Below are positions 29,699 to 47,300 of a stretch of 64,000 nucleotides of DNA, in pieces. The translations under genes were made by a program, and so were the position numbers. Under the pieces are notes generated by a model that saw only the letters and a program-made list of their open reading frames with translations, was not told where the DNA came from and made no database searches. Location: the NCBI RefSeq assembly GCF_001261915.1, contig NZ_CVRT01000106.1:1-64000 (forward strand), written 5' to 3'. This DNA is from Halorubrum sp. SD626R. Its GTDB lineage: Archaea > Halobacteriota > Halobacteria > Halobacteriales > Haloferacaceae. Each line of letters opens with the position of its first letter. The first letter of the stretch is position 1.

Positions 29699-30241
29699 AT
29701 GAGCAGAATAAACACGAACGACGACGAATTAGCGATCAAACACCCACTAGCGGACATTAACGAGATCGTCATCTCTCCCGACGACGTAGCCGACTGTATC
29801 CAGCGGAACCACAAACAGAGCAACCGCGGGACATACGTGCTTCGCGTCACCCCGCCATTCCGTGGGAGCGTCGAAGCGAACCTATTCTTTAGTGAACCGG
29901 AGACACGATATGCTGATAATATAGATCCTGTTCCGATCCATATTGACCCGTTTGCGTTCCTGTGTGGGCACGCAGACGGACTAGATTCACACGCGTACTA
30001 CCATAACGTCCACAGCGCTGCGAAATATCCGAACTGTCTCGAAGATAAGGACATCTATGAGCGTGACGCTGACGATGACACGACCTGGGACGAGTGGCGC
30101 GAAACCACCATAGAGATTTGGCGCAACGAGGCACGCGCGTGTGTTAAGGAAGTGACCACAATCACATTCCCGCCGATGGAAGTCGGACCGAATCGTGTCG
30201 CTGGAACCGCCGTCCCAATCACGATCCAGTATGACGAGTGA
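29699..30241 (+). CDS. Hypothetical haloarchaeal protein, first gene of the tRNA-element operon
   Basis: A 180-residue acidic protein. The segments GTYVLRVTPPFRGSVEANLF and VPIHIDPFAFL resemble uncharacterised haloarchaeal proteins that I associate with DUF8009, but I am not certain. His-rich HNVHS and a Trp-rich helix follow. No catalytic motif is visible. A GTG one codon upstream is possible. The next gene is 168 bp away, and the gap holds a tRNA-like minihelix. Confidence 0.6.
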   Translation: MSRINTNDDELAIKHPLADINEIVISPDDVADCIQRNHKQSNRGTYVLRVTPPFRGSVEANLFFSEPETRYADNIDPVPIHIDPFAFLCGHADGLDSHAYYHNVHSAAKYPNCLEDKDIYERDADDDTTWDEWRETTIEIWRNEARACVKEVTTITFPPMEVGPNRVAGTAVPITIQYDE

Positions 30242-30346: not shown

Positions 30347-30391
30347 GCACGTGAGCGGCGGCGGAACCAAGGATCGTACCCTTGGGCGTGC
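30347..30391 (+). ncRNA. tRNA-like acceptor/T-arm element 1
   Basis: An outer stem GCACGT/GCGTGC (30347-30352/30386-30391) stacks directly on an inner stem CCAAGG/CCTTGG (30367-30372/30380-30385). The inner stem closes a 7-nt loop, ATCGTAC. The continuous 12-bp helix and 7-nt loop equal the tRNA acceptor-plus-T-arm half, with a 14-nt linker replacing the D, anticodon and variable arms. Exactly 18 nt separate it from the next start codon. Related elements follow at 30846, 31423 and 32215. Confidence 0.55.
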
Positions 30392-30409
30392 CTCAAGGTG
30401 ACACAACCT

Positions 30410-30832
30410 ATGGTAGCAACAGACCCAGACTACGTTAGTGGATGCACCCTCTGCGGATCAGACACCGGTCACTGGCTGAATGATTATTGCGAGGACTGTC
30501 GAACCTGCCCGCGGTGTGGCGGCGGGACTGAGGATCCAGGCGGCATCTGTCGTGGCTGCTTCGCCAGCGACAGTCGGCAGATCATTCGGGATTCCCCAGT
30601 TGGTGACGGTGACTTCGTCCGGTATGACGGAGAGATTTGGACTGCACACATCGGGGAATGGCACATGGTGCATCTCACACCGGTCACAGTACCCCGCGTC
30701 GAGCGCGAATGGGGCGTGGACATACGTGATGTTGACCCAGTTGATGAGTCTGAAGTCTCCAGTAACGCTGACTGGTGCATCAATCATCAGACTGCACGGT
30801 TAGTTGATCCGGAGATCCGAACTAGCATATAA
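30410..30832 (+). CDS. Zinc-ribbon protein
   Basis: A 140-residue protein with eight or more Cys in paired CxxC motifs near the N-terminus (CTLCG, CEDCRTCPRCG, CRGCF; about residues 11-55), enough for two zinc sites. The rest is acidic and beta-like (DGEIWTAHIGEWHMVHL). The ATG at 30410 lies 18 nt after tRNA-like element 1; an in-frame GTG 12 nt upstream exists. Such multi-zinc proteins of plasmids and viruses often bind nucleic acid or act as adaptors. Role unknown. Confidence 0.65.
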   Translation: MVATDPDYVSGCTLCGSDTGHWLNDYCEDCRTCPRCGGGTEDPGGICRGCFASDSRQIIRDSPVGDGDFVRYDGEIWTAHIGEWHMVHLTPVTVPRVEREWGVDIRDVDPVDESEVSSNADWCINHQTARLVDPEIRTSI

Positions 30833-30845
30833 ATTCCACTACACA

Positions 30846-30889
30846 CCCGCAGGCGGTTCCTGATACCGGCGTTCGATTCGCCGGGCGGG
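30846..30889 (+). ncRNA. tRNA-like acceptor/T-arm element 2
   Basis: It begins 13 nt after the previous stop codon. The outer stem CCCGC/GCGGG (30846-30850/30885-30889) is continuous with the T-stem CCGGCG/CGCCGG (30866-30871/30879-30884). The loop TTCGATT is a perfect tRNA T-loop with the G53-C61-type closing pair. An 15-nt linker replaces the other arms. The next ATG is exactly 18 nt downstream, the same spacing as element 1. Confidence 0.65.
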
Positions 30890-30907
30890 CATCAATCGAG
30901 ACCAACT

Positions 30908-31417
30908 ATGTCAAGCATGAAAGCGCTACACAAGATGACGATCGAGTGCGTCCCGGTTGACGCTCCGGAGTACTACCAATCCCTGCGAGACGAGGATCAT
31001 TTCGTCTGTACGCGGTGGGTGAGAGGCGAAGACAATGGTGGACGGCTAGTTGGTGGTGGCGTAGATGTCGTTCGCGTACCGGTGCTGTCGGTACCGAACG
31101 ATGTTGCTGTGTCACTGACAAACGGTGACCGAGTCGATGTAGCTTCAGAGCTTTCTGCTGGCGAATTTAATGAGTTCGTGGACGAATGCGAGACGGTACT
31201 AGATGATGTTGAGAAGCCGTTGCCACCGTACTGCGAGGCGCACTTATACGGTGAGCCGGCCGTGGTTCAGCGAACGTTGAACAATCTGTACGAGGTGTAC
31301 GTCAACGACAACATGGTGTTTGTCGCGGCGTATGGGTTCGACGACGGGTGGGTAAGGCAAGGGCTTGATCGGCACACTGCTGAAGGATTGTTCACCGGCG
31401 ATTGGCCGGGAGAGTGA
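30908..31417 (+). CDS. Hypothetical protein, third gene of the tRNA-element operon
   Basis: A 169-residue acidic protein (MSSMKALHKMTIECVPVDAPE). It is predicted alpha/beta, with a central acidic helix (AGEFNEFVDECETVLDDVE) and a C-terminal beta-rich part (NLYEVYVNDNMVFVAAYGF). No catalytic or zinc motif is seen. It is flanked on both sides by tRNA-like elements, 18 nt before the start and 5 nt after the stop. Function unknown. Confidence 0.6.
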   Translation: MSSMKALHKMTIECVPVDAPEYYQSLRDEDHFVCTRWVRGEDNGGRLVGGGVDVVRVPVLSVPNDVAVSLTNGDRVDVASELSAGEFNEFVDECETVLDDVEKPLPPYCEAHLYGEPAVVQRTLNNLYEVYVNDNMVFVAAYGFDDGWVRQGLDRHTAEGLFTGDWPGE

Positions 31418-31422
31418 TCACA

Positions 31423-31468
31423 CGCGTCCCTGGTGGGTTCTCTCACCGGGTTCGATTCCCGGAACGCG
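31423..31468 (+). ncRNA. tRNA-like acceptor/T-arm element 3
   Basis: It begins 5 nt after the previous stop. The outer stem CGCGT/ACGCG (31423-31427/31464-31468) is separated by one unpaired A from a T-stem CCGGG/CCCGG (31446-31450/31458-31462) closing the canonical T-loop TTCGATT. The T-arm is indistinguishable from that of a real tRNA, but no D-arm, anticodon arm or variable arm fits the 18-nt linker. The next ATG is 36 nt downstream, twice the spacing of elements 1 and 2. Confidence 0.65.
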
Positions 31469-31504
31469 CCTCGGCCCGGAACGGTTCACCACAACTAACC
31501 AACT

Positions 31505-32212
31505 ATGGCACGAAACACCACAAACGTAGATAACATAGAGGAAAACGTTCCGCTGGAATACTTTGAGGAAGCTAAGCCGCGAGAAAAGAAAACACTTGCC
31601 GCAATCATCACAGAAGATGCAGTCCCAACCGGGACGCGTTGGGGCGACGGCGGATACAGGCACCGCCCGGCAGATGTTCACCGCATCCTCACGGAAGCAA
31701 TCAACGCAGCCGCGCCCAACAGTAAATTACTACGTGAAGAGATAGACCGGGACAGAACGACATATAGTGCTGGGGTGACCGGCTGCGAAGGATACTCTGC
31801 AGAATATAGCATCCGCGGATACATCCCGGAAGATGACGTTGACGAGGCAGAAACGGCCGTTCGGAGCACTATCAGCGACCGCGATAGGCTTACCATGTGC
31901 GGGTACGAGACAAGATCCATAGACCAAATCCGCAGTGAAACCATCGAACTTGCCAACGAGTACTACCCAACTAACGCGATCACCGGCGAAGAACTCGTCT
32001 CAGCTGTTGAAATCGGATACACGCCAGATGCAGAATCACTCGGCTTATCTCAACACTCGGGCAGGGATCTCACAGATAAAGAGAAAGAAATGATGGCGAA
32101 TCTCCGATGGCTACTTCAAAAGGGCTGTCATGGCACGCTCACCAACGATGAAAGGTGGGTACATTTCACGGTCAGAGTCAAGATTAAAGCCAGCAAACCG
32201 TACTACGCGTAA
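31505..32212 (+). CDS. Hypothetical protein, fourth gene of the tRNA-element operon
   Basis: A 235-residue soluble protein (MARNTTNVDNIEENVPLEYF). The N-terminal third is helical and basic-acidic mixed. The middle is alpha/beta (YSAEYSIRGYIPEDDVDEAE) and the C-terminus ends in a beta-strand VHFTVRVKIKASKPYYA. No known motif. Two nucleotides after its stop a fourth, degenerate tRNA-like element begins. Function unknown. Confidence 0.6.
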   Translation: MARNTTNVDNIEENVPLEYFEEAKPREKKTLAAIITEDAVPTGTRWGDGGYRHRPADVHRILTEAINAAAPNSKLLREEIDRDRTTYSAGVTGCEGYSAEYSIRGYIPEDDVDEAETAVRSTISDRDRLTMCGYETRSIDQIRSETIELANEYYPTNAITGEELVSAVEIGYTPDAESLGLSQHSGRDLTDKEKEMMANLRWLLQKGCHGTLTNDERWVHFTVRVKIKASKPYYA

Positions 32213-32214
32213 CA

Positions 32215-32265
32215 CCCACACGCGCGGCTGGTGCCTCTCCAACCGGATTCAATTCGCTGGGCGGG
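32215..32265 (+). ncRNA. Degenerate tRNA-like acceptor/T-arm element 4
   Basis: It sits 2 nt after the stop of the fourth gene. CCCAC/GCGGG (32215-32219/32261-32265, one A-C mismatch) would form the outer stem. CCGG (32243-32246) pairs with CTGG (32257-32260, one G-U) around a loop holding TTCAATT. Pairing is poorer than in elements 1-3, and no clear gene follows within 18 nt (a GTG frame at 32287 is weak). It may be decayed after loss of its downstream gene. Confidence 0.4.
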
Positions 32266-32321
32266 AATCAAGGTGAGACAACCAGAGTGATTGAGGGTGT
32301 AGATCTGGACGGGGTTTTTGT

Positions 32322-32347
32322 GTTTCAGGGGCTGGCATCCCTGAAAC
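32322..32347 (+). terminator. Perfect 9-bp hairpin after the tRNA-element operon
   Basis: GTTTCAGGG (32322-32330) and CCCTGAAAC (32339-32347) flank an 8-nt loop. It lies 110 nt after the last gene of the operon and 62 nt before the AbrB-like gene. It could be a terminator or an operator-like palindrome for the downstream gene. Confidence 0.4.
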
Positions 32348-32408
32348 AGAGACTTACCTTATTAGATCAAATATTCAAATCAATATTGTTGGTGGGTGAC
32401 TTAGAACG

Positions 32409-32570
32409 ATGCCAAAAACCACGACAACAACCGTTACTCGGAACGCCGAAGGACAGTACCAGGTAACCATCCCCAAAGCGCTCGCAGACGCGATGGATCT
32501 CGCAGATGAGAAAGTTGAGTGGGATGTGATCAGTTCTAGGAAACTCGAAATAGCGGTGAAAGATGATTGA
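32409..32570 (+). CDS. AbrB/SpoVT-type swapped-hairpin DNA-binding protein
   Basis: A 53-residue protein. TVTRNAEGQYQVTIPKALADAMDL has the strand-turn-strand and IPKALxxAxxL signature of the AbrB/MazE fold, ending in a beta segment (KLEIAVKDD). Such proteins dimerise and serve as autoregulators or antitoxins. No toxin gene is adjacent, since the next gene is a recombinase. The ATG at 32409 gives a complete domain. Confidence 0.7.
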   Translation: MPKTTTTTVTRNAEGQYQVTIPKALADAMDLADEKVEWDVISSRKLEIAVKDD

Positions 32571-32732
32571 ATTATAGAATCTAGAACGAGCAATACTGCG
32601 GATACCTATAGTTCAGCATCTTGTTCCCGTTCACAAGGACAGAGGGGGACGTGCTGACCGATAGATGAAGCACATCGAGGGACTTCAGAGCACAGACTCC
32701 AAACAACTTGATCTAGAGTAAGTGGACAGACT

Positions 32733-33482
32733 ATGACACAGAACGCAATCGGTTACACACGACTCAGTCAAAAGAGCGACACGAGCTTAGGAAATCAGAA
32801 GCAGAACATCCGGGAGTACTGTGATGAACACGGCATGAAGCTCGATCGAATCTACGATGACGGCCAGCAAGCTTCCGGATGGGACGACTCCCGCGATGAA
32901 TACCGTGAACTCAAGCAGCGGCTTCGTGAGGACGATGATTTGGATGTGATCGTACTACACGACAAGCGTCGGATCGCCCGGGACGTTGACGAGGTGATGC
33001 GCCTCATCCCGGATTTCCGTGAGTACAACGTAGAATTACACACCGTGTTGGATGGACAGTTGGACTTAGCGGATCCGATGCATGCGGCAATCGAGATATT
33101 AAAGGCAGCCGCAGCACACCAAGAAAAACTCAAAGAGATTGAGAAGGGATTGGAAATTACTGAAGCTCGTCGAGACAATGGATACTGGATGGGAGAAGCC
33201 CCATACGGGCTGAGGTTCGGTGTAACTGAAGAGTATGGAAAGAGGCTCGTGCCGGACCGAGGTGAGTGGTCCGACGTGGAACGCGTGTTAGCACTTCGAG
33301 ACGACGGCATTAGTTACAGAGAGATCGAGGAAGAGACAGACGTTGCGTACACGACGGCATACAGGATCGTCCAGCGAGAAGAAGTATACAAACAAGCACG
33401 TGCACGTGCGGACCGGCACGGGCTCAACATCTCAGACCAGACCGATATGGACGGTGAGACTGCCGACGAGGCGGGTGTATGA
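32733..33482 (+). CDS. Serine recombinase (resolvase/invertase family)
   Basis: A 249-residue recombinase. The N-terminal catalytic domain has Tyr8, Arg10 and the nucleophile Ser12 (GYTRLSQKSDTSLGNQ). The VIVLHDKRRIARDVDEVMRL segment carries the conserved arginines, and a long E-helix (AAIEILKAAAAHQEKLKEIEKG) follows. A DNA-binding HTH lies at about residues 185-215 (RDDGISYREIEEETDVAYTTAYRIV). It is smaller than phage large serine integrases, so resolution or inversion is more likely than integration. Part of the mobile character of the island. Confidence 0.88.
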   Translation: MTQNAIGYTRLSQKSDTSLGNQKQNIREYCDEHGMKLDRIYDDGQQASGWDDSRDEYRELKQRLREDDDLDVIVLHDKRRIARDVDEVMRLIPDFREYNVELHTVLDGQLDLADPMHAAIEILKAAAAHQEKLKEIEKGLEITEARRDNGYWMGEAPYGLRFGVTEEYGKRLVPDRGEWSDVERVLALRDDGISYREIEEETDVAYTTAYRIVQREEVYKQARARADRHGLNISDQTDMDGETADEAGV

Positions 33483-33526
33483 GATTCTTGGATACCCACC
33501 AGACTCGCATACCGGTGTCGATATTG

Positions 33527-34726
33527 TTACTTTTCGTGTTCCAGGAGTTCGTCTATTTCAGCGAGTGTTTGCTGAGCGAACGCAACAGTCCCAGCGACGT
33601 GAGTTTTTGACGGGATGGTTTCATCGCCCCTTCTCGTTCTGTCCTGGGAAAGCGCGTATTCCTGTTCAATCACACCTGTAGTGAAGGCAATCCGATCACG
33701 AACACGTTTGAGCTCCTCGATAGGAATTGAAGTACGCTGTGACTGGATTTTCTCGTCCGAAGTGGAAATTCTGTGTTGATTGTGTTCGGTACCCTCACTT
33801 CGAACTTCCGAATTGGCATTGTCTTTACAATTGGAATCGTCCCGTGGCTCACTCTTTAACTCTCGCAAAGCTTTGAGAAAAGCCGTATCCTCTGACCCTA
33901 TTATTGAGACGTAGGCACGACTGACTGATTTATCACTCGGAAGGTTTTCCGAAGCAATCTCTGCGATGCGTGTATCCGTTAGATCTGGATTCTCCATAAT
34001 CGCATCAACAATTGCTCGTTGCTTCTCTGTCAACGCATTATACCACTGCCGTAATTCTTCTTCATCTACGCTACCTTTGGACTTGGTACCTTCTGGATAG
34101 TCGTCAGAGCCGTTGTTCGTATCTACGTCTGGGTTTTTCTGAGAGGGTGTGGTTTGCTCGATTCCGATATTGTTCGTTTCGGAGTCAGAGTGTCCGTCAC
34201 ACGTACTGGAATCACGGGTTTGAGTCTCGTCCGGAGCAGCGGACATAAACGAACTCTGACTCGTGACAGGTCGATCAGCGGGGATACTGTCACCATCACT
34301 AGTGTTATTTAGATCTGCTGTACCCTCTCTACTGTTGCTTCCATTCTGGCCGGTGTATTTCTTGGTGAGTTTCGTGTTAACTCGGTCAAGCAGGCCGCAG
34401 TCGACAATTTCGATTATTTCTTGCTGGCTGAGTTCTCGTTCAATCACGTCGGCTACGCCGTCACCGGTTTCGAGTTGTTTGCGTAGCGCGTCAACCACAT
34501 CTCTATGGTTATCAACGACCTGGGATGGGTAGGATTGTGCGCTTCCGACACGCGTAGCAATAGAGACTGCGGGTTCGTCCGGGTGTTCAAGTGTGGCGAT
34601 GATTATGGCTTGTTGTTTCGTCGTTAAGTCCGCAAGACGTGAACCAGATTCATCGCCAGTTCCGGTGGTTTTAGCCTGATCGCTACTGCTATTACGGTCG
34701 CGGGTTGAATCAATGTTTGCTGTCAT
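33527..34726 (-). CDS. Hypothetical protein with two HTH-like repeats
   Basis: A 399-residue, highly polar protein. Two similar segments, LTTKQQAIIIATLEHPDEPA (about residue 35) and LTEKQRAIVDAIMENPDLTD (about residue 235), each begin an HTH-like unit. They are separated by a Ser/Thr/Asp/Asn-rich linker of about 120 residues. The C-terminus is helical and may form a coiled coil (VAGTVAFAQQTLAEIDELLE). It suggests a flexible two-headed DNA-binding protein. The start at 34726 is preferred over one 30 nt upstream. It is convergent with the recombinase. Confidence 0.55.
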   Translation of the reverse strand: MTANIDSTRDRNSSSDQAKTTGTGDESGSRLADLTTKQQAIIIATLEHPDEPAVSIATRVGSAQSYPSQVVDNHRDVVDALRKQLETGDGVADVIERELSQQEIIEIVDCGLLDRVNTKLTKKYTGQNGSNSREGTADLNNTSDGDSIPADRPVTSQSSFMSAAPDETQTRDSSTCDGHSDSETNNIGIEQTTPSQKNPDVDTNNGSDDYPEGTKSKGSVDEEELRQWYNALTEKQRAIVDAIMENPDLTDTRIAEIASENLPSDKSVSRAYVSIIGSEDTAFLKALRELKSEPRDDSNCKDNANSEVRSEGTEHNQHRISTSDEKIQSQRTSIPIEELKRVRDRIAFTTGVIEQEYALSQDRTRRGDETIPSKTHVAGTVAFAQQTLAEIDELLEHEK

Positions 34727-34895
34727 ACTTGGCAGCCCGGGTCTACGGGTGTCCAAGCACCCGTGACTCGTTTCGATAGAGCCAATTCCCGGTACTCAGG
34801 TTCTTGCGATTCACTAACTTAAATAGTGGTTTTTCACAAAATTACGTATTGATGACATTATGTTAACTAAGACAGTGGAAATGGCAGGTGATGCT

Positions 34896-35732
34896 TTACT
34901 GGAGAAACACAGGTACGTTAGAGTCTGTTAACGCACTGGGATCAATCACACTCTCCGACAACCGTGTACCAAGTGTTAATGAGGACAGATCGCCCGATAC
35001 AGCACGTGTTTTGTCGAATCGACCAACCCGAACTGGTACCGTTGCGGCATCCTGTAACCATACCTCGATTTTACTTGGATCGTACCGCCCATCAACGTCA
35101 AACACGAGGTACGCATCGTATCCGGCATCAAACAGTACCGTGAGACGCCGACTGAGATCGAGTTGACTAATCTCAGAGAACACCTCAACTGCAATAGGTG
35201 GAGAACTCAGATGCAGGTCTGTTTCGATCCACTGGTCGTTACTTGGGGCAGTCACACGTCTTTCTGGTTCGATACGTGGCACGGAACTGGTTCGATCACC
35301 CGAGATCCAGTCACGGGTTAGCTGCTGAGAAGCACGAGCGAGTCGATGTGCAGCGAGTTCAACTGCTGCCCGGTGTGAAGCCCCCATCGATCCATCTCCA
35401 AAACAATCCGCGTCACCGTTCGTATGTTCAAACCATTTAAATACGCCTTCAAGATGATCAACCTCTTGATTTCGAACGCTGTTCCGGGTAACTGGTTTCC
35501 CACAAACAACACACTCATACCGTGAATCGTCGTTATCACCTACCGCGTCCCCTGTATCCTTACGCTGGGAATTGTGCTTGGGGATGAATTGGGGTGATGT
35601 AGGACATTGTAGTTCAACGCCACCATCAGTCAGTATCCCTTCATGTACATCGTGTGATTGAGATTCTGGATCTGGTAAGGATTCTGGGCCGGTAACAACG
35701 ATTCCACAAGTTGTATCGAAAGCGATCAGCAT
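34896..35732 (-). CDS. CoiA-like protein with zinc finger and nuclease-like domain
   Basis: A 278-residue protein. A CxxC pair (YECVVCGKPV, about residues 71-80), a downstream His/Cys (about residues 92-110) and then a beta-alpha core containing PPIAVEVFSEISQLDLSRR and YDAYLVFDV recall the competence protein CoiA and other PD-(D/E)XK-like proteins with a D/E-x-E core. The motif is degenerate, so activity is uncertain. A strong TATA-like stretch (atatataatatataa) abuts the start, predicting a leaderless transcript. It lies downstream of the BREX operon on the same strand but has its own promoter. Confidence 0.5.
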   Translation of the reverse strand: MLIAFDTTCGIVVTGPESLPDPESQSHDVHEGILTDGGVELQCPTSPQFIPKHNSQRKDTGDAVGDNDDSRYECVVCGKPVTRNSVRNQEVDHLEGVFKWFEHTNGDADCFGDGSMGASHRAAVELAAHRLARASQQLTRDWISGDRTSSVPRIEPERRVTAPSNDQWIETDLHLSSPPIAVEVFSEISQLDLSRRLTVLFDAGYDAYLVFDVDGRYDPSKIEVWLQDAATVPVRVGRFDKTRAVSGDLSSLTLGTRLSESVIDPSALTDSNVPVFLQ

Positions 35733-35957
35733 ATATAATATATAAACGCAGATTATAATAATTCTTGTCTATCCTACACTCCAATAACACGCAATATAGA
35801 GTGTGTGGAGTCAATAATCACAGACTGTGGGTCCATCAGACGTGTGCTACTCTCGGAATTAAGTTACAAGCTCAAACGGAGCATCAATGCCGAAAGTTAC
35901 ACGGTCGGGAATAGGCTCTTCTGTGAATTAGTTAACACCCTGTGAATTAGTTGAGTG

Positions 35958-37985
35958 TTATTCCAGTTCAATCGCTTTACTAGCTGCATCCAAAGGATTG
36001 GTATAGAACACGAGTTGGAGCTGATCAAGGAGTTCATCGGGAATTTTCGGTAAGTCTTCTTTATTTTTCGCTGGAAGGAGCACCGTTTTGCCCCCAGAGT
36101 CCGCAGACAGCTGGAGTTTATCGATCAACGAACTCACTGAGACTAATTCGCCCATCAAACTCATCGATCCCAGTACGACCGTCTGTGGTCGAACTGGTCG
36201 ATCAAGAATGCCCGAAACAATACCGACGAGAAGCCCGACGCTCGTTTCACCACCCTCATTCGCGTCTGAGGGGTTGAGAATTTGGACGTTGATGTCATAC
36301 TCTCCCAGCGTCTCTTCACGACTGAGCTCCCGCATATTCGCCTGAAGATAGTCACAAGCGGTTTCGAACGATTCTTTCATCCGCTTTCCAGGTGTCCCTG
36401 AAATGTTCGTCTTCCCCGAACCAGGGAGTGTCTGTGTCTCTATCCGGAAGGGAGCGTGGCGTCCCTCACTCTCGCCTATTGTGTAGACTGTACCCGCCTG
36501 CTGTGTTCCGGGGGGGATGAGTGCCTCGTCTGCTTCTTCGGGGACTGAGACATAGATCTCCTCTTTCGTATCCAAGTCGAGGTAGGAGAATTCGACGGCG
36601 CGATATTCCATGCCACCAATCCGCTTCAATTGCTCTTTGACTCGGCGGCGACCTTCCATCGCAAATTCGAGATACTCTCGGAGTTCTTCTTTCGTGTACT
36701 CTCCGTGTGGGTGGAGTAGCTTGAGTAGACCAGAGACGGTCTTGCGTACAGCCTTCTCGTCCCGTTGGTTCAGGTGGTCACCGAACGCGAACTCCTCGTT
36801 AATCGCATCACCGTATGACTCCTTTCGGAGTTCCCGGACGAACTCAGCGAAGTAGTCGACGATGAACCCGAACTGGTCGCCAAAGAACTCGGACCGCATT
36901 TTCGGGACTTCCCAACCGGGAAGGTAGTAGTGAAACCGGTCGATGAGTGCGAGATCCTGCATATCCTCGGGGAACGGTTCGAAGAGGTGTGAGCTCTTGA
37001 GAACGCCTTCAACGTCGAGATCGATGTTCCCGACGTAGACCATCGAGGCTTGGGCGGTGAGCTCTTCAGTCCCACGAGAGAAGCTTCCGGACTCCATGTA
37101 GTCTTTGAGCATCTGGACGGCTTCCGAATCGCTGAACTGGAGCCCCCCGACCTCGTCGAACGCGACGACATCCCAGCGACCGACGAGTCCGATCCGCCCT
37201 GTATTCAGGTTCAAGAAGAGTTTCGCAACGGTGGTTTTACCGCCGGAGATGAGGATCGAGTGGGGACTGATTTCACGGTAGAGATAGCTCTTTCCTGTCC
37301 CACGTGGTCCCAATTCGACGTAGTTGTAATTCGACTCGACAAGCGGGATACACCGAGCTAAGAAGAGGAATTTCTCGCGGTCGCTAAACGAGGAAGGGTC
37401 GTATCCGACGGTCTGAAGGAGAAGATCCATCCATTCATCGCGTGTGAAATCTTTACGCCGATCCTTCAGTTGGTCAAGGTCAAGATTCGATACCTGAATG
37501 GGTTTGAACGAGTCGATGCCGAAGAGGCTCTTTGGACTGTTCGCATTCTCGGGAAGATACTCCAGATCGATGATAGCCCAGACGCCACCCCCGAGGAGTT
37601 TGGGATGCTTGCTGACGAGATGTTCGTTGATCTCGACATCGCTCAAGCCGAGGTTGACGAACGAGCCGATGTAGGCGTCCTGTTGTTCATCGAGCCTGAC
37701 GGTGACCTTGTCGATGACGCGATAACGCCCCCGCTCTCGAACCTCGCTCTTGACGAATTCAGCTTCGTCGGGACGAACGTAGTGCTTCGACAGAATCTCT
37801 TTGACCTTTTCGAGACCCTCTTCCAGAGATTCCTCGTCATCAGTCGCACAGTACTGTCCGATCAGATATTCAAGAACGTAGGTGGGGACATTCACCCCGG
37901 ATTTGATGTCCTGAACGAGGTCTTTCCGGACGACGCGCCCGGAGAAGACATCCAGGGCTTTCCGATCCACGTCCTCAGTCGTCAT
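35958..37985 (-). CDS. brxL: BREX Lon-like AAA+ protein BrxL
   Basis: A 675-residue BrxL. The AAA+ domain has Walker A GPRGTGKS (residues 226-233) and Walker B VVAFDEV (about 273-279). The C-terminal Lon-like domain (about 530-670) keeps a candidate Ser in GGETSVGLLVGIVSG and a Lys in SSLIDKLQLSADSGGKTVLLP. BrxL is the hallmark of type 1 BREX. Characterised members assemble as DNA-binding rings needed for phage restriction but not for methylation. It is the last gene of the operon, 121 bp after pglZ, and may be separately regulated. Confidence 0.92.
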   Translation of the reverse strand: MTTEDVDRKALDVFSGRVVRKDLVQDIKSGVNVPTYVLEYLIGQYCATDDEESLEEGLEKVKEILSKHYVRPDEAEFVKSEVRERGRYRVIDKVTVRLDEQQDAYIGSFVNLGLSDVEINEHLVSKHPKLLGGGVWAIIDLEYLPENANSPKSLFGIDSFKPIQVSNLDLDQLKDRRKDFTRDEWMDLLLQTVGYDPSSFSDREKFLFLARCIPLVESNYNYVELGPRGTGKSYLYREISPHSILISGGKTTVAKLFLNLNTGRIGLVGRWDVVAFDEVGGLQFSDSEAVQMLKDYMESGSFSRGTEELTAQASMVYVGNIDLDVEGVLKSSHLFEPFPEDMQDLALIDRFHYYLPGWEVPKMRSEFFGDQFGFIVDYFAEFVRELRKESYGDAINEEFAFGDHLNQRDEKAVRKTVSGLLKLLHPHGEYTKEELREYLEFAMEGRRRVKEQLKRIGGMEYRAVEFSYLDLDTKEEIYVSVPEEADEALIPPGTQQAGTVYTIGESEGRHAPFRIETQTLPGSGKTNISGTPGKRMKESFETACDYLQANMRELSREETLGEYDINVQILNPSDANEGGETSVGLLVGIVSGILDRPVRPQTVVLGSMSLMGELVSVSSLIDKLQLSADSGGKTVLLPAKNKEDLPKIPDELLDQLQLVFYTNPLDAASKAIELE

Positions 37986-38106
37986 TATATAACGGCACTG
38001 TAGCCGGGGGCATATTGGTGTCGGTCATCAGGAGTGAGAACTCAAAATAGTGAATGAACTCTGCCCGGATTTGACTACGACAGCCCGTTGTTGTATCCGA
38101 GATCAC

Positions 38107-40533
38107 TCACACGTCAAATCCCATATCGTCGTCTCCGAAGAGTAAATCCAGACCCACAGTTTGTCTCGTAATCGTTTCTCTAGTGTCAGTGTCGACGACC
38201 TCAAATTGAACGGTATCTTCACCCGAGACAGCTCCCTGCTTGAGCCGAACACGGGCACTATTGTCGCCAGGTGAAATTTCCATCGTTACAGGGTCTGCGA
38301 CTGGCTCACCATCGATGGTCGCACGAACCTCTAATATTGGTGCGGGGTCGAAGGCAACTTGACCGCTCTTGGCCTCGATCTCTACAGTGAGTATCGAGTT
38401 CGTAATCGGGTCCGAAATTGAGACATCGTAGCTGATCGATGCGCTCTCTTCGATCTCGCCTGTGGTCACAGTGAGGCATGGGACGAGTAGTTCTTGAAGC
38501 GAAATCCCACCGTGGAAGTACCGCATATTCCCACCTCGTGACTTGAAGCACGCGACACTACGAGGGAACAGCAACTTGATCTCGGGGCCATCAATGCCGA
38601 GTTTCGACAGTGCCTCGTGATCGATCTCGACGAACTCATCTGTATCAACGAGTGGCGTCTCGTGGTCGGCAGCAGCGAACCGACGTTTGACGATCGGGGC
38701 AAGGTCAGGTGCCTCGACTTTGTGATCGTCGCTCAGACGATCCGTGTACAGGAACCCGTGGTCGCTGGTGATCACGAAGCGGGTGTAGCCAGCTTGCTTC
38801 AGACGTTGTACCGTTCGTTCGACATCGTCGACGTGAGATGCGACTTGGCTGAATGCGGCATCGTCATCAAGACTCTCACCGAGTTTGTCGATCGTACCGG
38901 AGTAGACGACACGCGGAACAGGATCGGACTCGGTCAGCTCTTCCAGTGAAATGTCGCCAACTTCGTCTATGTCGACGACCTCGAAGCCCGCAGCACTGAG
39001 TCGTTCGACACGGTCCGCCTTTCCAGTCATTTGCTCACCCCCGCTGGTGACCACGAGTTCGTCGTCGTCGAGCGAGAGTCCGAGTTCCCCCGGTAGGTGT
39101 GCGGCCATACCGACCTCGGTGATCGACGGTAGTGCGGCGCTCATCGCACTAAGGTCCTGCTCGAAGTCGGTTCGTCGCCCGAGGTTTTCACGGATAGCCT
39201 CAGCGAGCTCGTAGCGAAGCCCGTCACAGATGATGATCGCTGTTCCGTCCTCTAAGTCAGCGAACTCCTCGTAGAACGATGTTTGCGGCGTACCGAGTGT
39301 CGGATCGTCACTCAGACCCTCTGCAAGCGGTCGGTTTACACCTTGAAGGAAGGCCATGTAGTGTTTGGTGACCTGCCGTTTCACCGTGGTTTCCTTCGGA
39401 TAGGGATATGTGGCCGTCTGGGTCGCGTTGATGTACCGACGATAGGCTGCGTCAACCTTCCACCAGCCGTCATCACTCGTATATTGCTGTGCGAGTTCCG
39501 TTGAGCCCATTCCCTTTGCGTCGTCGACATCCACGGTTCCGATCCGGCGGAGCGTCTGGACCGCCTGGGCGGGGACCGACCAGTCGACGAGATCCTCGTT
39601 GCTCCAGAAGCTGTCTTGGCGTTTGGTGACAGTTCGGTGGAGTTCTGCTGCCGTCTCTGGGAGATCGGCATACGTCCCTTCCGCAAGTCGCTCCATCACG
39701 AGCCGAATGAGGCCCGTGTCGATACCCTTGAACGCAGTGGCATCCCACCGCGTTTGATTGGAGTCGAGTACGGCCTCTGTGAGATCGTAGTCTGACTCAA
39801 TCTCCCGCGAATAACGCGTGAACTCGGCGGGAGCGTACTGCTGCCAATCGTCGCAGAACTTCGCTGCTGCTTGGGCGTCGTCCGCGGCGAGATTGTCGTA
39901 CTGTGCCGTCGGGGACCGACTCGTCACTTCACCAAAGAGGAGCTGGATCGCCAGCTCCTTCGGATCCAGCCCGGCGTCGATACCGTACTCTTCGCGGAGC
40001 TGCGCGTCCCACGCGTCAGCCATCGCGTTGTTCTCGATCGTCTCGCGGTACGCTTCGGGATCAGCGAGGTAGGCCCGAACCCACTGGTCAGTAGCTGGGC
40101 CTGCAGTACCGAAAAGGACACAAAAGAACGCCTTGCGCTGCATCTCGCGGTTCTGTCCCCAGTCCTCGTATGCGTCCGGGATCTCTTCGTCGTGTTCGAC
40201 GAGGAACTGTGTCACCGGTGTGTCGTCGATGTTCTGGCCGACGCGGTACTGTCGGCCGAGTGCGTGGACATCTCGGAACCACTCGGCATCGTTTCGGGAC
40301 TCGGGGATGTAGAACAGCCAGTTCTTCTCGTAGTCCGGATCCTCGTTTTGGAGACGTAGCTTCAGCTCGAAGTAACTGCCGTCGTAGCGGGCAAGTGTGA
40401 CATCGTCAAGTGCAGTTTCGACCTCGTCAAGAACACCTTTGTACTTCTCCTGAGCGTCGTACCACACCCAGACCGGGTGACGGTCGAATTTCTGCTGAAG
40501 TTCCGTGATAATGCTGTCCGCAAGATCTCCCAT
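38107..40533 (-). CDS. pglZ: BREX alkaline-phosphatase-superfamily protein PglZ
   Basis: An 808-residue PglZ. A helical N-terminal half is followed by the phosphatase-like core: IIICDGLRYE (about 433-442) carries the metal-binding Asp, ALPSITEVGMAAHLPG the nucleophile region, and FVITSDHGFLY (about 587-597) the DHG metal site. A beta-rich C-terminal domain ends the protein. PglZ is present in every BREX type and is the family signature. It is needed for methylation and defence in characterised systems. It lies 7 bp after pglX, so the two are co-transcribed. Confidence 0.95.
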   Translation of the reverse strand: MGDLADSIITELQQKFDRHPVWVWYDAQEKYKGVLDEVETALDDVTLARYDGSYFELKLRLQNEDPDYEKNWLFYIPESRNDAEWFRDVHALGRQYRVGQNIDDTPVTQFLVEHDEEIPDAYEDWGQNREMQRKAFFCVLFGTAGPATDQWVRAYLADPEAYRETIENNAMADAWDAQLREEYGIDAGLDPKELAIQLLFGEVTSRSPTAQYDNLAADDAQAAAKFCDDWQQYAPAEFTRYSREIESDYDLTEAVLDSNQTRWDATAFKGIDTGLIRLVMERLAEGTYADLPETAAELHRTVTKRQDSFWSNEDLVDWSVPAQAVQTLRRIGTVDVDDAKGMGSTELAQQYTSDDGWWKVDAAYRRYINATQTATYPYPKETTVKRQVTKHYMAFLQGVNRPLAEGLSDDPTLGTPQTSFYEEFADLEDGTAIIICDGLRYELAEAIRENLGRRTDFEQDLSAMSAALPSITEVGMAAHLPGELGLSLDDDELVVTSGGEQMTGKADRVERLSAAGFEVVDIDEVGDISLEELTESDPVPRVVYSGTIDKLGESLDDDAAFSQVASHVDDVERTVQRLKQAGYTRFVITSDHGFLYTDRLSDDHKVEAPDLAPIVKRRFAAADHETPLVDTDEFVEIDHEALSKLGIDGPEIKLLFPRSVACFKSRGGNMRYFHGGISLQELLVPCLTVTTGEIEESASISYDVSISDPITNSILTVEIEAKSGQVAFDPAPILEVRATIDGEPVADPVTMEISPGDNSARVRLKQGAVSGEDTVQFEVVDTDTRETITRQTVGLDLLFGDDDMGFDV

Positions 40534-40540
40534 ATTTGAA

Positions 40541-43500
40541 TTACCTCGAATAACTCGATTTTAGCTTCGGAAGGCCAGTTTCGAGAACTTCGTACTGATC
40601 CCACTCCTTGAGGTTCTCCCAGATTCCCTTTTCAACATCAACAGTGACACCGTCATCAATCATTTCGTCGATGGTATCACGGAATTCCCTGATGTCGTCA
40701 AGGTCGTTTTGCACTTCTTCCTTCCTCTTCAGGAGCTCCTTGTCCGGATCATCGCCGCTGGTTTGAGCGTTGAGTGTTTCAAGCTCATTTTCGAGTTCAC
40801 CGATTCGTGAATCGAGATACTGTCCACGGAGTTTCGGGAGTGTATTGGAACCAATATTATGGTAATAAATAAAACAACTAAATGAACCATTGGGACTTTC
40901 AAGCTGCCAATAAATCGGAATGCGCTGGCCGCGGCGGCGATATTCTTTGCAGTGATAATAACGGAAGTAATCATCTGAGAGCCACTGACCAACCGATTCC
41001 CCAAGAATACCTGAAAAGTAATCAAGTGTATCGTCTGGATCTTTTACGACCTCATCTAAAGCTGTTCTAAAGAGGTTATCAACGTCGGATTCAGCAGTAA
41101 CATCAATAATTTCATCGCGCTGGATCGGCGCTTCAGGCATCCACCGTCCGAATAGCACCCCTAATATCACACTGATGAAACGCTTACAAACTGCTTCTTT
41201 CTCTTTGTCTCGATAGAGATTATTCCCTTTGCGGAAATGAGCGAGATCGGTGGGCGAGAGACCTAAACGAGTGTAAATGTCTTCCAGACTTTTCCCGTTC
41301 TCAATCATAGACTTGATCTCTGATCGAACTTCCTCTGGATCTGTTTCTATTGAAGCGAAGTCTGTTTGGTAGGATCTATTCAATTCTGATACCAGTTCCT
41401 CAGAAACAGAGATCATCGAATATATTTCCTTATCAATCTTTGAATGATTCTCAACAATAGTAGCTTCAGATATATCCTTTTCAAAGAGTGCTGTCCTCAC
41501 CCATTCACGGATATTATTTATTTCACTATATTTATCTATGTCAAATGACCGAGCTACTTCCGTATAACTGAAGTTTGACTGTTGTGCCTCTATATTTTCT
41601 TGAACATAATTGGAAATCGTTGTTTCCGTCTCTTCCGATGTCGGTACAGGGATTTCACCGGCGTCACTTGGGTTGAAATTTACTGTAGGATTAATCCCAT
41701 TTGCTAAATATCTGAACAGGTTTGAATTCACATATCCTAGAATATAGTAGAGTGATAATTCATCTGGATGGATACTATAAACGCTCTTATCATAGACGCA
41801 ATCCCCTGGATAGTACTTCGCCATAAATTCATTACTAAAGCTTCTAAATGCTATTCCTTCTTGAAAATATTTGGAAGTATCAGAGAGTCCCTGATAGTTT
41901 TTCCCGTGTTTATCCCCATACTCAGTAATATTTTGTCCGTCATTTTCCCACCGGATAGTATAGTCAATAATATCGTAATATGGATTTCTATCACCACCCC
42001 TTACATGCCATTGATATTTTTCGCCAAGGTCATCGAAATCTACTTCCCAGTATTTGCGCAGGTGATGATCGTTATCTCCCGAAGCAACTCCCCCCGATAT
42101 ATCTGAGAGTTGATCTAGAGGTGGATACTCAGAAAAGAGGTTCAAAACCTCGTCACCAAACCAATAAGCAAATGGCGATCTTCTAATTTCGTTAAAAAGT
42201 TCCGGGCTGGTCAAATAAACATTATCTAAGTCGCGTCCATCGGCAAGTCCGGAATAGGTTTCCCGAAGACGGTCTACCTTGTTGTCAGATTCGACCAGAG
42301 AAATGAATCTAGCTTGATCAATTGTCCTGCCGGTAAAGCAAAAAGCAGTGTTCATATATCCCTCATCTCTATGCTCAAAATGAGCCATTTCAGTAATTCC
42401 GGAATTAGAGAGGAACCATTCTCGGAACTGTTCATAGCTGGATAGAAACATAAATGTCTCCATAGTAATCATTGAAACATATCCTGTTTCCTGAACAAAA
42501 TTCCTACACCGCTGAATGAACGCTGAATAAAGGTCTCGTTTCCCAATATAGTGATCTTTAACATATTGGTTTAATTCATCCCCCATTTTACTACTAGCAA
42601 GATACGGTGGATTAGATACAACAACATCATATGTTCCGCTTATCAGATCCAGGATTTCTATCGTCTTACCGACCTCAGAAGCGAACATTTCTTCAATTGG
42701 ATCATCCTGCTCAAGAGCCTCTTGAGCAAGTTGATGAGCATTTTCAAGCAATCGTTCTTTGATTTGATCCCATGACTCCACTTCACCCCCCACTACGAAT
42801 GTTGATTGAGATGTTAATTTCCCATCATTTGTGAACTGCGCTTGACCTGTTTCTTCGAATCTCTCACGATGATCGCTAATTACAGAATCAATCTGCTCTT
42901 CAATTTCAACGAGACTCCCCACCTCACGAATATTTGCGAAACTTCGCCAGACCTGCTCTAAAATTTCTTCCTCTAATTCAGATTGTGCCCGATCAAGAAT
43001 CTCTCGTTTTCGATCGCCATTAACCAGTACTGCATCAGCGGATATTATATTTAGCTGTGGAATTTCGACATCAGGAGAATATTCTTTAGCTTTTAGATAT
43101 AACGAAAGTGCCGCGATTTGTGCTGCACCGGAGTCAATATCTATCCCGTACAAGTTGTTACGTAATATCTCTCTAGGAATGTACTGCTCGGGGATTGATC
43201 CGTCTTCAAGATACATCTGATAGAGGACATCAAACGAATATAAGAGCATATGTCCACTACCACAGGCTGGGTCAAGTACTGTGATTTCTTCGGCTGGTTT
43301 AGATTTGCGTGTAGTTAATGAGCCTTCATTCGGAGATAGATAGAAGCACATATCCTTGCTGTCTATGTTAGTGCGTCCATCCTGCATTTCCAGCCATATC
43401 CGGCCGAGCGAATTATCTACCATCCACTCGACGATATGTCTCGGGGTAAACAGTTGTGTTTTCGTGGCGATGTCCGTCCCGGCGATCTTGTAGTTCTCTT

Positions 43501-44170
43501 TATCGACGCGTTCGTCAATCTCTTCACGTTCTTCCTCACCGAAGTACTGGTACACCCAGCCAAGTGCTTCGTCACTCTCCCATGCCTGGTCGTCAATCGC
43601 ATCCAGTTCGTCGAGAACTTCCTCTCGAACTTGTGCGTCAAGGTCGATGGCAGTGTGTTCGGATTCCTCGAAAATCATCCGAATCTCTGCACCGATCTCT
43701 TGATACGCGAGATCGAGTGCGGCACCGAAGCCGTCATCCGGTGCGTTAGTTAGCTCGCCGGCAATCTCAGCCACAGTGTGGTGCATATACGACCGATTTC
43801 CGTACTCCGGACGCTCGGTGATAGTTTCCTCGACGAGGCCACGAACTTCGATGGTTTTCAGCGCGACGAATCGGTTGAGATAGGTCTTGGTCGCCTCACG
43901 GACGTAGTTAGTAATTGACCGCTTCAGATCCCCTTCCGTGGATTCAAGTTCGCGTTCGATAGCGGCATCCAGCGTTCTCCGGGTGTGAATCTCCTCAACG
44001 GAGAGGTGCATCAGGTTCTCCAGTGGGAGTCTCTTGTCCTCATAGATGCCGTACTTTTCGAGCTGTCGTCGAAGCTCGTCTTCGAGCGTGTGACGCGTGC
44101 TGAGGATGGTACTTCGAATGGTCGAGCGCTGATCCGACGAGAGACCGGGTTGACCGTGTTTTGTGGACAT
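40541..44170 (-). CDS. pglX: BREX N6-adenine DNA methyltransferase PglX
   Basis: A 1209-residue methyltransferase. The SAM-binding motif VLDPACGSGHM (about residues 298-308) and the catalytic motif SNPPYL (about 519-524) define an N6-adenine enzyme. Large helical regions before and after should recognise DNA and partners. In BREX, PglX methylates one strand of a non-palindromic site to mark self DNA. The start MSTKHGQ is chosen; an in-frame start 84 nt upstream adds a segment without coding character. It is preceded by a 187-bp gap after brxC. Confidence 0.95.
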   Translation of the reverse strand: MSTKHGQPGLSSDQRSTIRSTILSTRHTLEDELRRQLEKYGIYEDKRLPLENLMHLSVEEIHTRRTLDAAIERELESTEGDLKRSITNYVREATKTYLNRFVALKTIEVRGLVEETITERPEYGNRSYMHHTVAEIAGELTNAPDDGFGAALDLAYQEIGAEIRMIFEESEHTAIDLDAQVREEVLDELDAIDDQAWESDEALGWVYQYFGEEEREEIDERVDKENYKIAGTDIATKTQLFTPRHIVEWMVDNSLGRIWLEMQDGRTNIDSKDMCFYLSPNEGSLTTRKSKPAEEITVLDPACGSGHMLLYSFDVLYQMYLEDGSIPEQYIPREILRNNLYGIDIDSGAAQIAALSLYLKAKEYSPDVEIPQLNIISADAVLVNGDRKREILDRAQSELEEEILEQVWRSFANIREVGSLVEIEEQIDSVISDHRERFEETGQAQFTNDGKLTSQSTFVVGGEVESWDQIKERLLENAHQLAQEALEQDDPIEEMFASEVGKTIEILDLISGTYDVVVSNPPYLASSKMGDELNQYVKDHYIGKRDLYSAFIQRCRNFVQETGYVSMITMETFMFLSSYEQFREWFLSNSGITEMAHFEHRDEGYMNTAFCFTGRTIDQARFISLVESDNKVDRLRETYSGLADGRDLDNVYLTSPELFNEIRRSPFAYWFGDEVLNLFSEYPPLDQLSDISGGVASGDNDHHLRKYWEVDFDDLGEKYQWHVRGGDRNPYYDIIDYTIRWENDGQNITEYGDKHGKNYQGLSDTSKYFQEGIAFRSFSNEFMAKYYPGDCVYDKSVYSIHPDELSLYYILGYVNSNLFRYLANGINPTVNFNPSDAGEIPVPTSEETETTISNYVQENIEAQQSNFSYTEVARSFDIDKYSEINNIREWVRTALFEKDISEATIVENHSKIDKEIYSMISVSEELVSELNRSYQTDFASIETDPEEVRSEIKSMIENGKSLEDIYTRLGLSPTDLAHFRKGNNLYRDKEKEAVCKRFISVILGVLFGRWMPEAPIQRDEIIDVTAESDVDNLFRTALDEVVKDPDDTLDYFSGILGESVGQWLSDDYFRYYHCKEYRRRGQRIPIYWQLESPNGSFSCFIYYHNIGSNTLPKLRGQYLDSRIGELENELETLNAQTSGDDPDKELLKRKEEVQNDLDDIREFRDTIDEMIDDGVTVDVEKGIWENLKEWDQYEVLETGLPKLKSSYSR

Positions 44171-44357
44171 GGATATTAGAAGACTGTGAGCCGCTGCGAA
44201 GCGAGTGGGATGGCGGCTCGCTGTGTCGTGACTCCCACCCGCGATGACATACAACGGTCAAGCAGTCGGTGTGTCTTATAATTGTGGGAGTAGCTACGCT
44301 GGGAGCTCTGGCTCGGATACGAGCAGTGTGAAAACGTCGCTGCCGTCAGAGGATTTG

Positions 44358-47300
44358 CTATCGGAAGCGGATCTCTATGTCACCATCTTGATCGAGAAGT
44401 TCTTCGACCTCTGCGCGAAGCTCCGAAATCGGCTGATCGATGTCGTCCGGGTCGGTGACGACGACGGATCCGAAGATGGAGTTGAGGTCCACGCTTTCTC
44501 GAACCGTTCCGTCGTCTTCGTCATCTTCTAGGTTGTCAATGTCGGTCTTCGCGGCATCTTCGTATGAATCAACGGTCTGGATATGCTCGATGAGCCGTGG
44601 AAGCGACGGTGTCGGATTGATGTGCTCCTCGTTGGAGATATTCAGATCAACCGATCCATCACCCTGCCGTTCCGTCAGATCGGACAGAGCAGCGTCGAGG
44701 TCGGTCTCATCGATGTCGGAGCCAGCATACGCCCGAACCGCTTCGATGGACTCAGTGTACGTCTCGTGGCGTTTCTCGTACAGGAATTCGTATGTGGTAG
44801 TGAACGCTTCCGCTGCAGTTCGGTAATCCGTTTTGACGTTGTTCCACTGACTGATGACGCCTTCCGTGTCCAGGGTATCAGTAACACGCTGTGCCGCCTC
44901 ACGCGCCTCATCGCTGATGTCGACGAGCCCAGGATGGTCATCCGCCTCGTCGACGAGGGATTCCCACTCGGTGGTGATGAACCGCTGGATGGTTTCGTAC
45001 GTCTCCAGCCGATTCTCACCACCGGTCTCACCGCAGAACTGGGCTACGTCTTTTGCTGTTTTCGTGAGCCCTTCCAGTTCGTCTTCGAAGTCAACGAACT
45101 GTTTGATGCGCTTGGCCGACGTAGGCTGTTGCAGCAGGTTCTGTAATTGCGTCTGGAATTGCTCTACGTCGTCTGTCAGCGGGAAGTCGACCCGCTGGAG
45201 TTGCGAGAGGAGTGTGCTCGTGGTCGAAACCCAGTCGTTCGCTGCCTCTCTGATCCCTTCGTCAACGGCTTGGTCGGTCGATTTGACCTTCCGGTCGAAC
45301 AGCCGATCGAGTAGCTGCTTCGCATCGGTTCGCGTTTCGACATCGACGGTCTCCCGCTCGTCGAACGAGGTGGATTTGAATTTCGTGACCTGCGTGAACA
45401 GCTCTTGTGCCCCGTCCTCGGAATACGTCTCGTACGTTCGCTCCTTGTGTGTCGGTATGACGGAGCCGTTTCTAAAGAGCACGGCAGCGGCCAGGCGAAC
45501 GACTTCCCGGCTCCACCCGTACGGTGGTTCAGCGAAGTGGTCGATCAGTTCGCTTCCAGAGCGAGATTCTCCGGCTGTCTCGCGTCGCTGAATTTCGTCT
45601 TCGACTTCGGAAGCGATGCGGGCCTCTGCGATGAGATCACCGTCTTGGACGACGCCGAGGTCGGAGAACACAGATGGGTTCGACGAGCCTTGGAGATCTC
45701 CGAATATCTGCTCGATGTGACGATCTTTGACCGTGGGTGACCCGTGTTTGAAACTGGAGAAGACTTTGGGAATGGCGTTGTTCGTCTTCCGCGACACAAG
45801 CGAGCTAAGTGACGTGCTTGTTGTGTCGAATTCCTCGGTGTCACCGTTGTAGATGAGTGTTCCACGCTGGAAGCTTCGTTTGAACTCGCGTTCGACCTCG
45901 TTTCGGAGACGTTGGAGATCTTCCTGTTTTTGTCCGAGAGCTTCCTGCTCTTCTTGGCTGAGCTCGTTCCCACGCTTTGATTTAACGACGGTGTTGATCT
46001 GGTAGATCGATTTCAGCTTCTCGTAGATGCTGTGTTGCTTCTCGTCGTCGGCAATCCAGTACAGCGTATCGTCTTCACTGAAGCTCTGTGTTTTCAGCCC
46101 ATCCGGGTCGAGATCTTCGTACCGCTGGTGGATCGGTGAGTAGGTTTTGAGATCGACGTGTCCGTTCGACGTGATGGTTTCTCCGTCGATACTCAGATTC
46201 AACTGGAACGTTTTCCCCTCGTAATTGACGCGTGAGGTTTCGTCGAGAATGTCGTTCAGGAACCGTTTCGAAGAGCGACGGATGTCCCCAGGGCCGACCT
46301 CGATACTCTTGATTTCGTTTTCGAGTTCACGCTCGGTCTCTCGAAGGAACCGGTAGCCCTCTTCGCTTCGTCCGACGAGGCCGGCTTCGACGAGTGCATC
46401 GAGCGTGTCGTGTACGTCGTTTTCTAACTGCTTCGTGGGGCCGAGCTCCGTCTGGAGTGAAGTTGCAATGTTATCGGCGGTGTTCGGGATCCAGGGGAGT
46501 TGTTGGAGTAGGTAGAGTGACTTGAGAACGCGGCGGGCGATTTCTGGGTCGGCGTTCTTGGGTGTCGCTTCCCGGATGGATTTGACATCGTTGCTCGGGA
46601 TGTCGTTGCTGATCTCGTCGAAGATCATATCGAGCGTGACGAGCGCCCCGAGCTCGTCGTCGTAGAGGTGGGCCTCGTCTTTCAGCACGCTCTGTGTGAC
46701 ATCAATGAGTGTTCGCTCGCTGCCCGCGAGTTGGTCATCCGAGCCTTTGCCCAGCGCTTTGAACATTTCCGGGAGAATGTCGAGCTGGTACGGAAGGAAC
46801 GGGTAGCAATCGATGAAGTTCTCTCTCGTGATTGGCTTCAGACTCTGACCGGAATCCAGCTTGTACCTGGCGGAAAGGATGCCTTCGTGCTGATCGTACA
46901 GATTGCCGATGGCTTCCCTGGCGTCGCCTTTCTTGCTGAGAACACGGTCGCGGACGACCTTGTCGAGGTTTTCGGACGTGAGGTCGAACCGGTGCGGGAA
47001 CCGATCGATGACCTTCGACTCCTCGGCTTCTTTTTCGAGCACGCCGGGGATGAGCTGCTGGAGCTGTTCCTGGGACGTGACTCCGAGGTACACTTTCCCC
47101 TTGCCTTTCTGGCCGAACTCCTCAACGATACTCTGGAGCTCTAAGAGGAGTTGCCCGTCATCTCCAATGAATTGGGAGATTTCGTCGATGAAGACGAAGT
47201 ATCGGGAGTTGTTCCCCGTTTCACGTTCCTGCTGTTCGACGTATTCGACGATGTCTTCCGCGAGGGTTGAAGCGTTGATCAGAACATTGTCCTGAACATC

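Follow-up and report, generated by a model that had tools for sequence, protein, structure and literature searches.

What are the short tRNA-like hairpins that separate the small genes of a haloarchaeal genomic island, and what purpose do they serve there? We analysed a window of 64,000 nucleotides from Halorubrum sp. SD626R (contig NZ_CVRT01000106.1, positions 1 to 64,000), for which the original prediction had described four acceptor/T-arm minihelices lying between genes, the last of them degenerate, and direct reading of the letters together with a check of the pairings bears out this description. The layout is GCACGT-14 nt-CCAAGG/ATCGTAC/CCTTGG-GCGTGC in element E1, ACCCGC-15 nt-CCGGCG/TTCGATT/CGCCGG-GCGGGC in E2, and ACGCGT-17 nt-ACCGGG/TTCGATT/CCCGGA-ACGCGC in E3, and E4 can be aligned with them by structure (Table 1). 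In this alignment, made by MAFFT with N-padded linkers, the acceptor stem and the T-arm are common to all four, as are a linker GG and a T located two bases past the acceptor; the GG, which is D-loop-like, has a constant spacing, 4 nt past the acceptor strand. The features of a t-element, an acceptor stem plus a T-arm with a 7-nt loop of the TTCRA type, are complete in E2 and E3, are limited to the stems in E1 and are degenerate in E4, and linkers of 14–17 nt hold no full D and anticodon arms. The T-loop of E1 is devoid of the usual T54 and A58 and the T-stem of E4 is broken, so that these two elements may be poor substrates. When the four window elements were folded one by one, the drawn structure was the single-sequence minimum free energy fold for E2 only, and thus the case for these elements is a comparative one.

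The spacing to the genes is also as predicted, with the next ATG lying 18, 18, and 36 nt past positions 30391, 30889, and 31468, respectively, and with three of the elements placed 2–13 nt past a stop codon, the exception being E1, which lies about 105 nt past the stop of ORF1. No function could be assigned to ORF1–ORF4 from Pfam or PHROGs, nor to ORF2–ORF4 from NCBIfam; the region has no DNA match in phage or plasmid collections, and ORF1, ORF3, and ORF4 have no relatives in viral contigs. The relative of ORF4, from a congeneric genome, has a T-arm-like hairpin downstream. The leaders that follow E1, E2, and E4 are related, those of E1 and E4 both including TCAAGGTGASACAACC, and E4 is followed by its E1-like leader and then by no convincing gene. 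A BREX cluster (BrxL, PglZ, PglX, BrxC, BrxA) adjoins the array on the minus strand (window 35958–49363).

Table 1. Genes, leaders, minihelix elements, and flanking features of the array, in window coordinates.
Feature	Coordinates	Strand	Remarks
ORF1, first gene, fixed flank of island	29699..30241	+	80% identical in Halopenitus persicus
Element E1, minihelix	30347..30392	+	T-loop ATCGTAC, atypical; predicted tRNase Z cut 30392/30393
Leader of ORF2, 17 nt	30393..30409	+	AGGT..ACCT hairpin; SD-like AAGGTGA
ORF2, zinc-ribbon-like orphan	30410..30832	+	Relatives in other element-flanked arrays
Element E2, perfect minihelix	30845..30891	+	T-loop TTCGATT; predicted cut 30891/30892
Leader of ORF3, 16 nt	30892..30907	+	
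ORF3, orphan	30908..31417	+	
Element E3, minihelix	31422..31470	+	T-loop TTCGATT; predicted cut 31470/31471
Leader of ORF4, 34 nt	31471..31504	+	
ORF4, orphan	31505..32212	+	One relative, 29% identity
Element E4, degenerate, layout as E1–E3, T-stem broken	32220..32267	+	Last element of array
Inverted repeat GTTTCAGGGG..CCCTGAAAC	32322..32347	+	Homology with H. persicus restarts; right edge of variable region
MazE-like protein, fixed flank	32409..32570	+	89% in H. persicus
Small serine recombinase (resolvase family), fixed flank	32733..33482	+	90% in H. persicus

The stems had been described as differing in sequence while keeping their pairing, in a covariation-like manner, and this holds both for the window and beyond it. 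In the four window elements alone 86.4% of the paired cells are indeed paired, with a covariation of 0.439 vs 0.212 in shuffles. Among 77 non-5S elements the paired cells reach 98.9% and two-sided changes occur in 10 of the 11 pairs; there are 166 double changes, where shuffles give 33 and slid controls no more than 21, the paired cells of the slid controls falling to 37–53%. These figures lean towards structure, since the 77-element alignment was fitted to the model, and the set includes a few elements from loci that were not screened by eye and at least one element (L101) that precedes 5S rRNA. The loop TTCGA and the linker GG are conserved across the set.

To which family the elements belong is indicated by the covariance models. 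A model built only from the four window elements plus leader (R1), run on 97 related genomes, gave as its best outside matches intergenic pairs in two congeners (G013, G046) and a t-element directly 5' of a 5S rRNA gene (G071), the latter scoring 30.6 bits. A second model, built from 13 elements without the leader (R2), has matches (E ≤ 0.01) in 204 of the 392 genomes that represent the order, and in a sample of 295 genomes of the phylum its matches at E ≤ 0.001 are confined to this same order. The check that had been proposed, a search of haloarchaeal genomes, plasmids, and viruses with such a model, was therefore strongly positive, recovering the 5S t-element and many intercistronic homologues. 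In a pair of congeners (G038, G018), elements are found with no clear adjoining gene start (L041 and L042). The genome of the window encodes tRNase Z and RNase P RNA, as well as a 5S t-element of its own (L142 1436–1498), which was recognised by eye and is missed by R2 because of an extra hairpin in its linker. For Haloferax volcanii, a t-element 5' of the 5S rRNA is described (Hoelzle et al. 2008, 2012, as cited in PMC4326828 and PMC7714728), and Haloferax t-elements placed around a crRNA are cut in vivo by tRNase Z and RNase P (PMC4326828). The elements of the window resemble that of the H. volcanii 5S rRNA in the acceptor/T-arm minihelix, the linker GG, the T past the predicted cut, the recovery by a model of window elements, and the presence of tRNase Z in the host. 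In contrast, they lie between protein genes, several per operon, are very diverse in sequence, and are followed by short leaders and hairpins, and their cleavage is a predicted one.

The elements found with the structure-based models are placed in a recurrent manner relative to genes. An upstream ORF stops within 100 nt in 59 of 72 non-5S elements and a downstream start lies within 80 nt in 52 of 72, against 1 and 3, respectively, on the mirror strand; both stop and start are present on the same strand in 43 of 72, compared with none on the mirror strand and 3.5% at random places. Since the loci were partly picked for clustered matches, these fractions do not describe a random sample. Two groups of genes follow the elements. 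The first, located in chromosomal operons that hold as many as five elements each, encodes either TafA/TafE-like fimbrial proteins or surface proteins whose signal peptide is of the SipW type (TIGR04088), and the second is made up of small orphan genes carried by mobile islands and viruses. In the SipW-type operons of L076, L082, L083, L085, L086, and L088, CCCC..GGGG hairpins are found 3' of the predicted cut.

Several simpler identities were considered. A full tRNA gene is rejected, as there is no cloverleaf with anticodon and the linker is too short, and as placement and covariation speak against it too; ARAGORN found no tRNA gene in the window, and no Rfam family matched the window at the gathering threshold. 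An intrinsic terminator is also rejected, by the lack of a T-run 3' of any window element as well as by placement and covariation, and placement and covariation likewise dismiss simple tRNA debris. A broader version of the last idea, in which the elements would be what is left of former tRNA genes, or attP copies deposited on integration of mobile DNA, with no function in RNA processing, draws on the occurrence of some elements in viruses and islands and on the tRNA-derived attP sites of HF2-group viruses (PMC8707807). We regard it as highly unlikely, given the double compensatory changes, the constant GG, the constant T past the acceptor, the recurrent position between stop and start, the several different elements per operon, and the lack of a cloverleaf. 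The tRNA-like attP sites of HF1-group haloviruses (PMC8707807, PMC7230728) are similar in being truncated tRNA sequences in haloviral genomes, but those copies correspond to the 3' portion of a host tRNA and adjoin an integrase, whereas window-type elements vary with their pairing kept, and precede genes.

By analogy with the 5S t-elements, tRNase Z should cut directly after the discriminator, and the bases past this point are not arbitrary. A T is found directly 3' of the predicted cut in 76 of 77 elements, and TT or TA follows it in the 5S copies, which we take to be the 5' end of mature 5S rRNA. The predicted leaders have a median of 22 nt among those counted, and some are as short as 2–5 nt, so that nearly leaderless mRNAs would result. 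Among leaders of at least 14 nt, a hairpin starts no more than 5 nt from the predicted cut in 38 of 44, against 17.1 ± 2.9 in shuffled leaders (maximum 27 in 300), the pattern having been noticed before the statistic was computed; the same loose hairpin criterion is satisfied by 44% of other upstream regions. Such a 5'-terminal hairpin could protect the processed mRNA.

In the haloviruses, the same arrangement can be followed between orthologues. The HF2 genome has elements at 2902–2948 and 4372–4417, both with a stop on one side and a start on the other, and the first element is conserved, and unannotated, in 43 phage records. In HF2-group orthologues the hairpin past the cut changes in a compensatory way (AGTAGC/GCTACT, GGTAGC/GCTACC, CGATAGC/GCTATCG). 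The site 5' of the prohibitin gene is occupied by a complete tRNA-Arg in some HF1-group viruses (HF2, L158:1510–1584), and by a minihelix with identical downstream sequence in Serpecor1, HRTV-8, HSTV-3, and HJTV-2 (L163–L166), with a T following both forms; the form in Serpecor1 and HRTV-8 has been described as a tRNA that has lost 28 nt by deletion (PMC7230728). This interchange of tRNA and minihelix at one viral site suggests both an origin and a role for the elements. Upstream of the large terminase gene of HF2, a conserved 'tRNA-Pro' with an aberrant fold was reported (PMC7230728), and this might be another punctuation element. Evidence to the contrary comes from a 5' end of HF2 mapped by primer extension, T-4384, which falls inside the second element instead of at the predicted cut, 4416, and was read as a promoter start; the paper that read it so also suggested that the long HF2 transcripts are processed. 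Among six haloarchaeal plasmids, three with distant relatives of ORF1 or the recombinase and three other named ones, the only model match was in pNPA70 (NZ_CP040639), where an element at 12643–12691 is followed almost directly by an ATG, such that a cut here would leave the mRNA with almost no leader.

These data bear on whether the elements act in RNA by being cut or in some other way, by terminating or attenuating transcription, by blocking exonucleases, or by bringing ribosomes, or proteins that bind tRNA, to the start codon that follows. The constant, short spacing from element to ATG and the SD-like leaders would be in line with such roles. Nevertheless, we consider an action without cleavage unlikely, because the elements are kin to the 5S t-elements, whose known role is cleavage by tRNase Z, because the hairpins start at the predicted cut, and because a real tRNA takes the place of the minihelix at the viral prohibitin site; as for termination, the T-run that a terminator would need is not found past the elements.

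A further aspect of the window is the turnover of its genes, documented in one comparison, that with H. persicus. This organism retains ORF1 and E1 (82–84%), the latter with a compensatory T-stem change, and the segment corresponding to window 32322–35854 (88%), while the intervening 1.9 kb is wholly different (L118 10611–12177 vs window 30402–32321). The H. persicus array holds other genes, yet again presents an element at each boundary. The breakpoints of the exchange are at the 3' edge of E1 on the left and just past E4 on the right. The presence of other genes between matching flanks indicates that genes enter and leave the array while its flanks stay fixed, and the stretch at the position of the BREX cluster in the H. 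persicus island, which has no homology to it, points to a hypervariable defence island. ORF2-like zinc-ribbon genes are found in three element-flanked arrays, and a five-gene array in another genome (G168) has an element at 4 of 4 boundaries, one of them divergent. Unrelated genes of these arrays share the first codons MVAT.. or MTQN.. (window 30410 and 32733, L080, L081), which is perhaps a trace of exchange at leader and start codon. The exchange may be the work of the serine recombinase or of ordinary homologous exchange.

This turnover raises the question of whether the elements are instead DNA recombination sites with an attC-like function, on which the nearby serine recombinase would act, their likeness to tRNA coming from tRNA-derived att sites. 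The replaced content between E1 and E4, flanked by segments 84–88% identical that include the recombinase, the position of the breaks at the edges of the element array, and the ORF2-like genes in different element-flanked arrays would all suit such sites. However, the stem sequences differ with their pairing kept, which means that there is no common DNA core, and serine recombinases normally require near-identical sites. In addition, elements are also found 5' of chromosomal SipW-type operons and of 5S rRNA, where no such exchange is seen, and their orientation follows that of the gene. We therefore judge it very unlikely that recombination is what the elements are for. The array resembles integron cassettes in its exchangeable genes that each bring a folded element, its conserved flanks, a recombinase nearby, and content that has been exchanged with respect to H. 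persicus; the differences are that the only recombinase identified by the array is of the serine type and not an IntI-type tyrosine recombinase, that no attC core sites are shown, and that most relatives of the window elements lie outside such arrays.

The reading that we consider best, and quite probable, is that we are dealing with haloarchaeal t-elements, at which tRNase Z, and probably RNase P as well, divides the transcript into single-gene mRNAs. The proposal that t-element-like sites cut polycistronic mRNA is thus supported by the relation to 5S t-elements, by covariation, and by the same-strand order of stop, element, and start, from which we infer that cleavage takes place, which enzymes carry it out, and how expression is affected. 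The elements would be minimal tRNA mimics, an acceptor stem stacked on a T-arm, in which the D-loop-like GG of the linker could dock with the T-loop in the manner of the tRNA elbow, and they would be recognised by the tRNA maturation enzymes within a polycistronic transcript. Cutting past the discriminator, tRNase Z would give the downstream gene a defined 5' end that is short, and often hairpin-capped or nearly leaderless, and RNase P would probably cut on the 5' side, such that the upstream message ends just past its stop codon. With cuts at the elements, one promoter could yield several single-gene mRNAs. In the window, the elements would punctuate a hypervariable array whose genes are exchanged, each newcomer arriving with its own element.

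In mitochondria, tRNAs located between genes release single mRNAs through the action of RNase P and tRNase Z, a process known as tRNA punctuation. The haloarchaeal case is alike in having a tRNA or tRNA-like fold between genes, to the point that HF1-group viruses carry the full tRNA-Arg at one such site, but differs in that the elements are minihelices of about 42–57 nt with no anticodon, which uncouples punctuation from the making of tRNA. The t-elements themselves, tRNA punctuation, and the action of tRNase Z on 5S precursors are already known, and so is the processing of operon mRNAs in archaea, the signals that define the cuts being largely open. In the open papers we found no report of t-elements between archaeal protein genes, the H. 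volcanii elements of Hoelzle 2012, which may include intergenic cases, lying outside this scope; the widespread use of t-elements to punctuate mRNAs appears to be new.

If this is true, a recognisable signal for tRNase Z used across a whole order would mean that, in a prokaryote, the maturation of mRNA is linked to that of tRNA, would account for the greater length of haloviral primary transcripts relative to the RNAs detected on blots, and would provide a ready-made tool for multi-gene constructs in archaea. Because the predicted cut sites are exact, the proposal can be directly tested in laboratory haloarchaea and in virus HF2. On balance, we lean towards the wider view that minimal tRNA mimics serve haloarchaea and their viruses as a general punctuation of mRNA, where the tRNA maturation machinery produces single-gene messages that are hairpin-capped or nearly leaderless, so that in mobile islands an operon could take up or swap foreign genes with their independent expression preserved.
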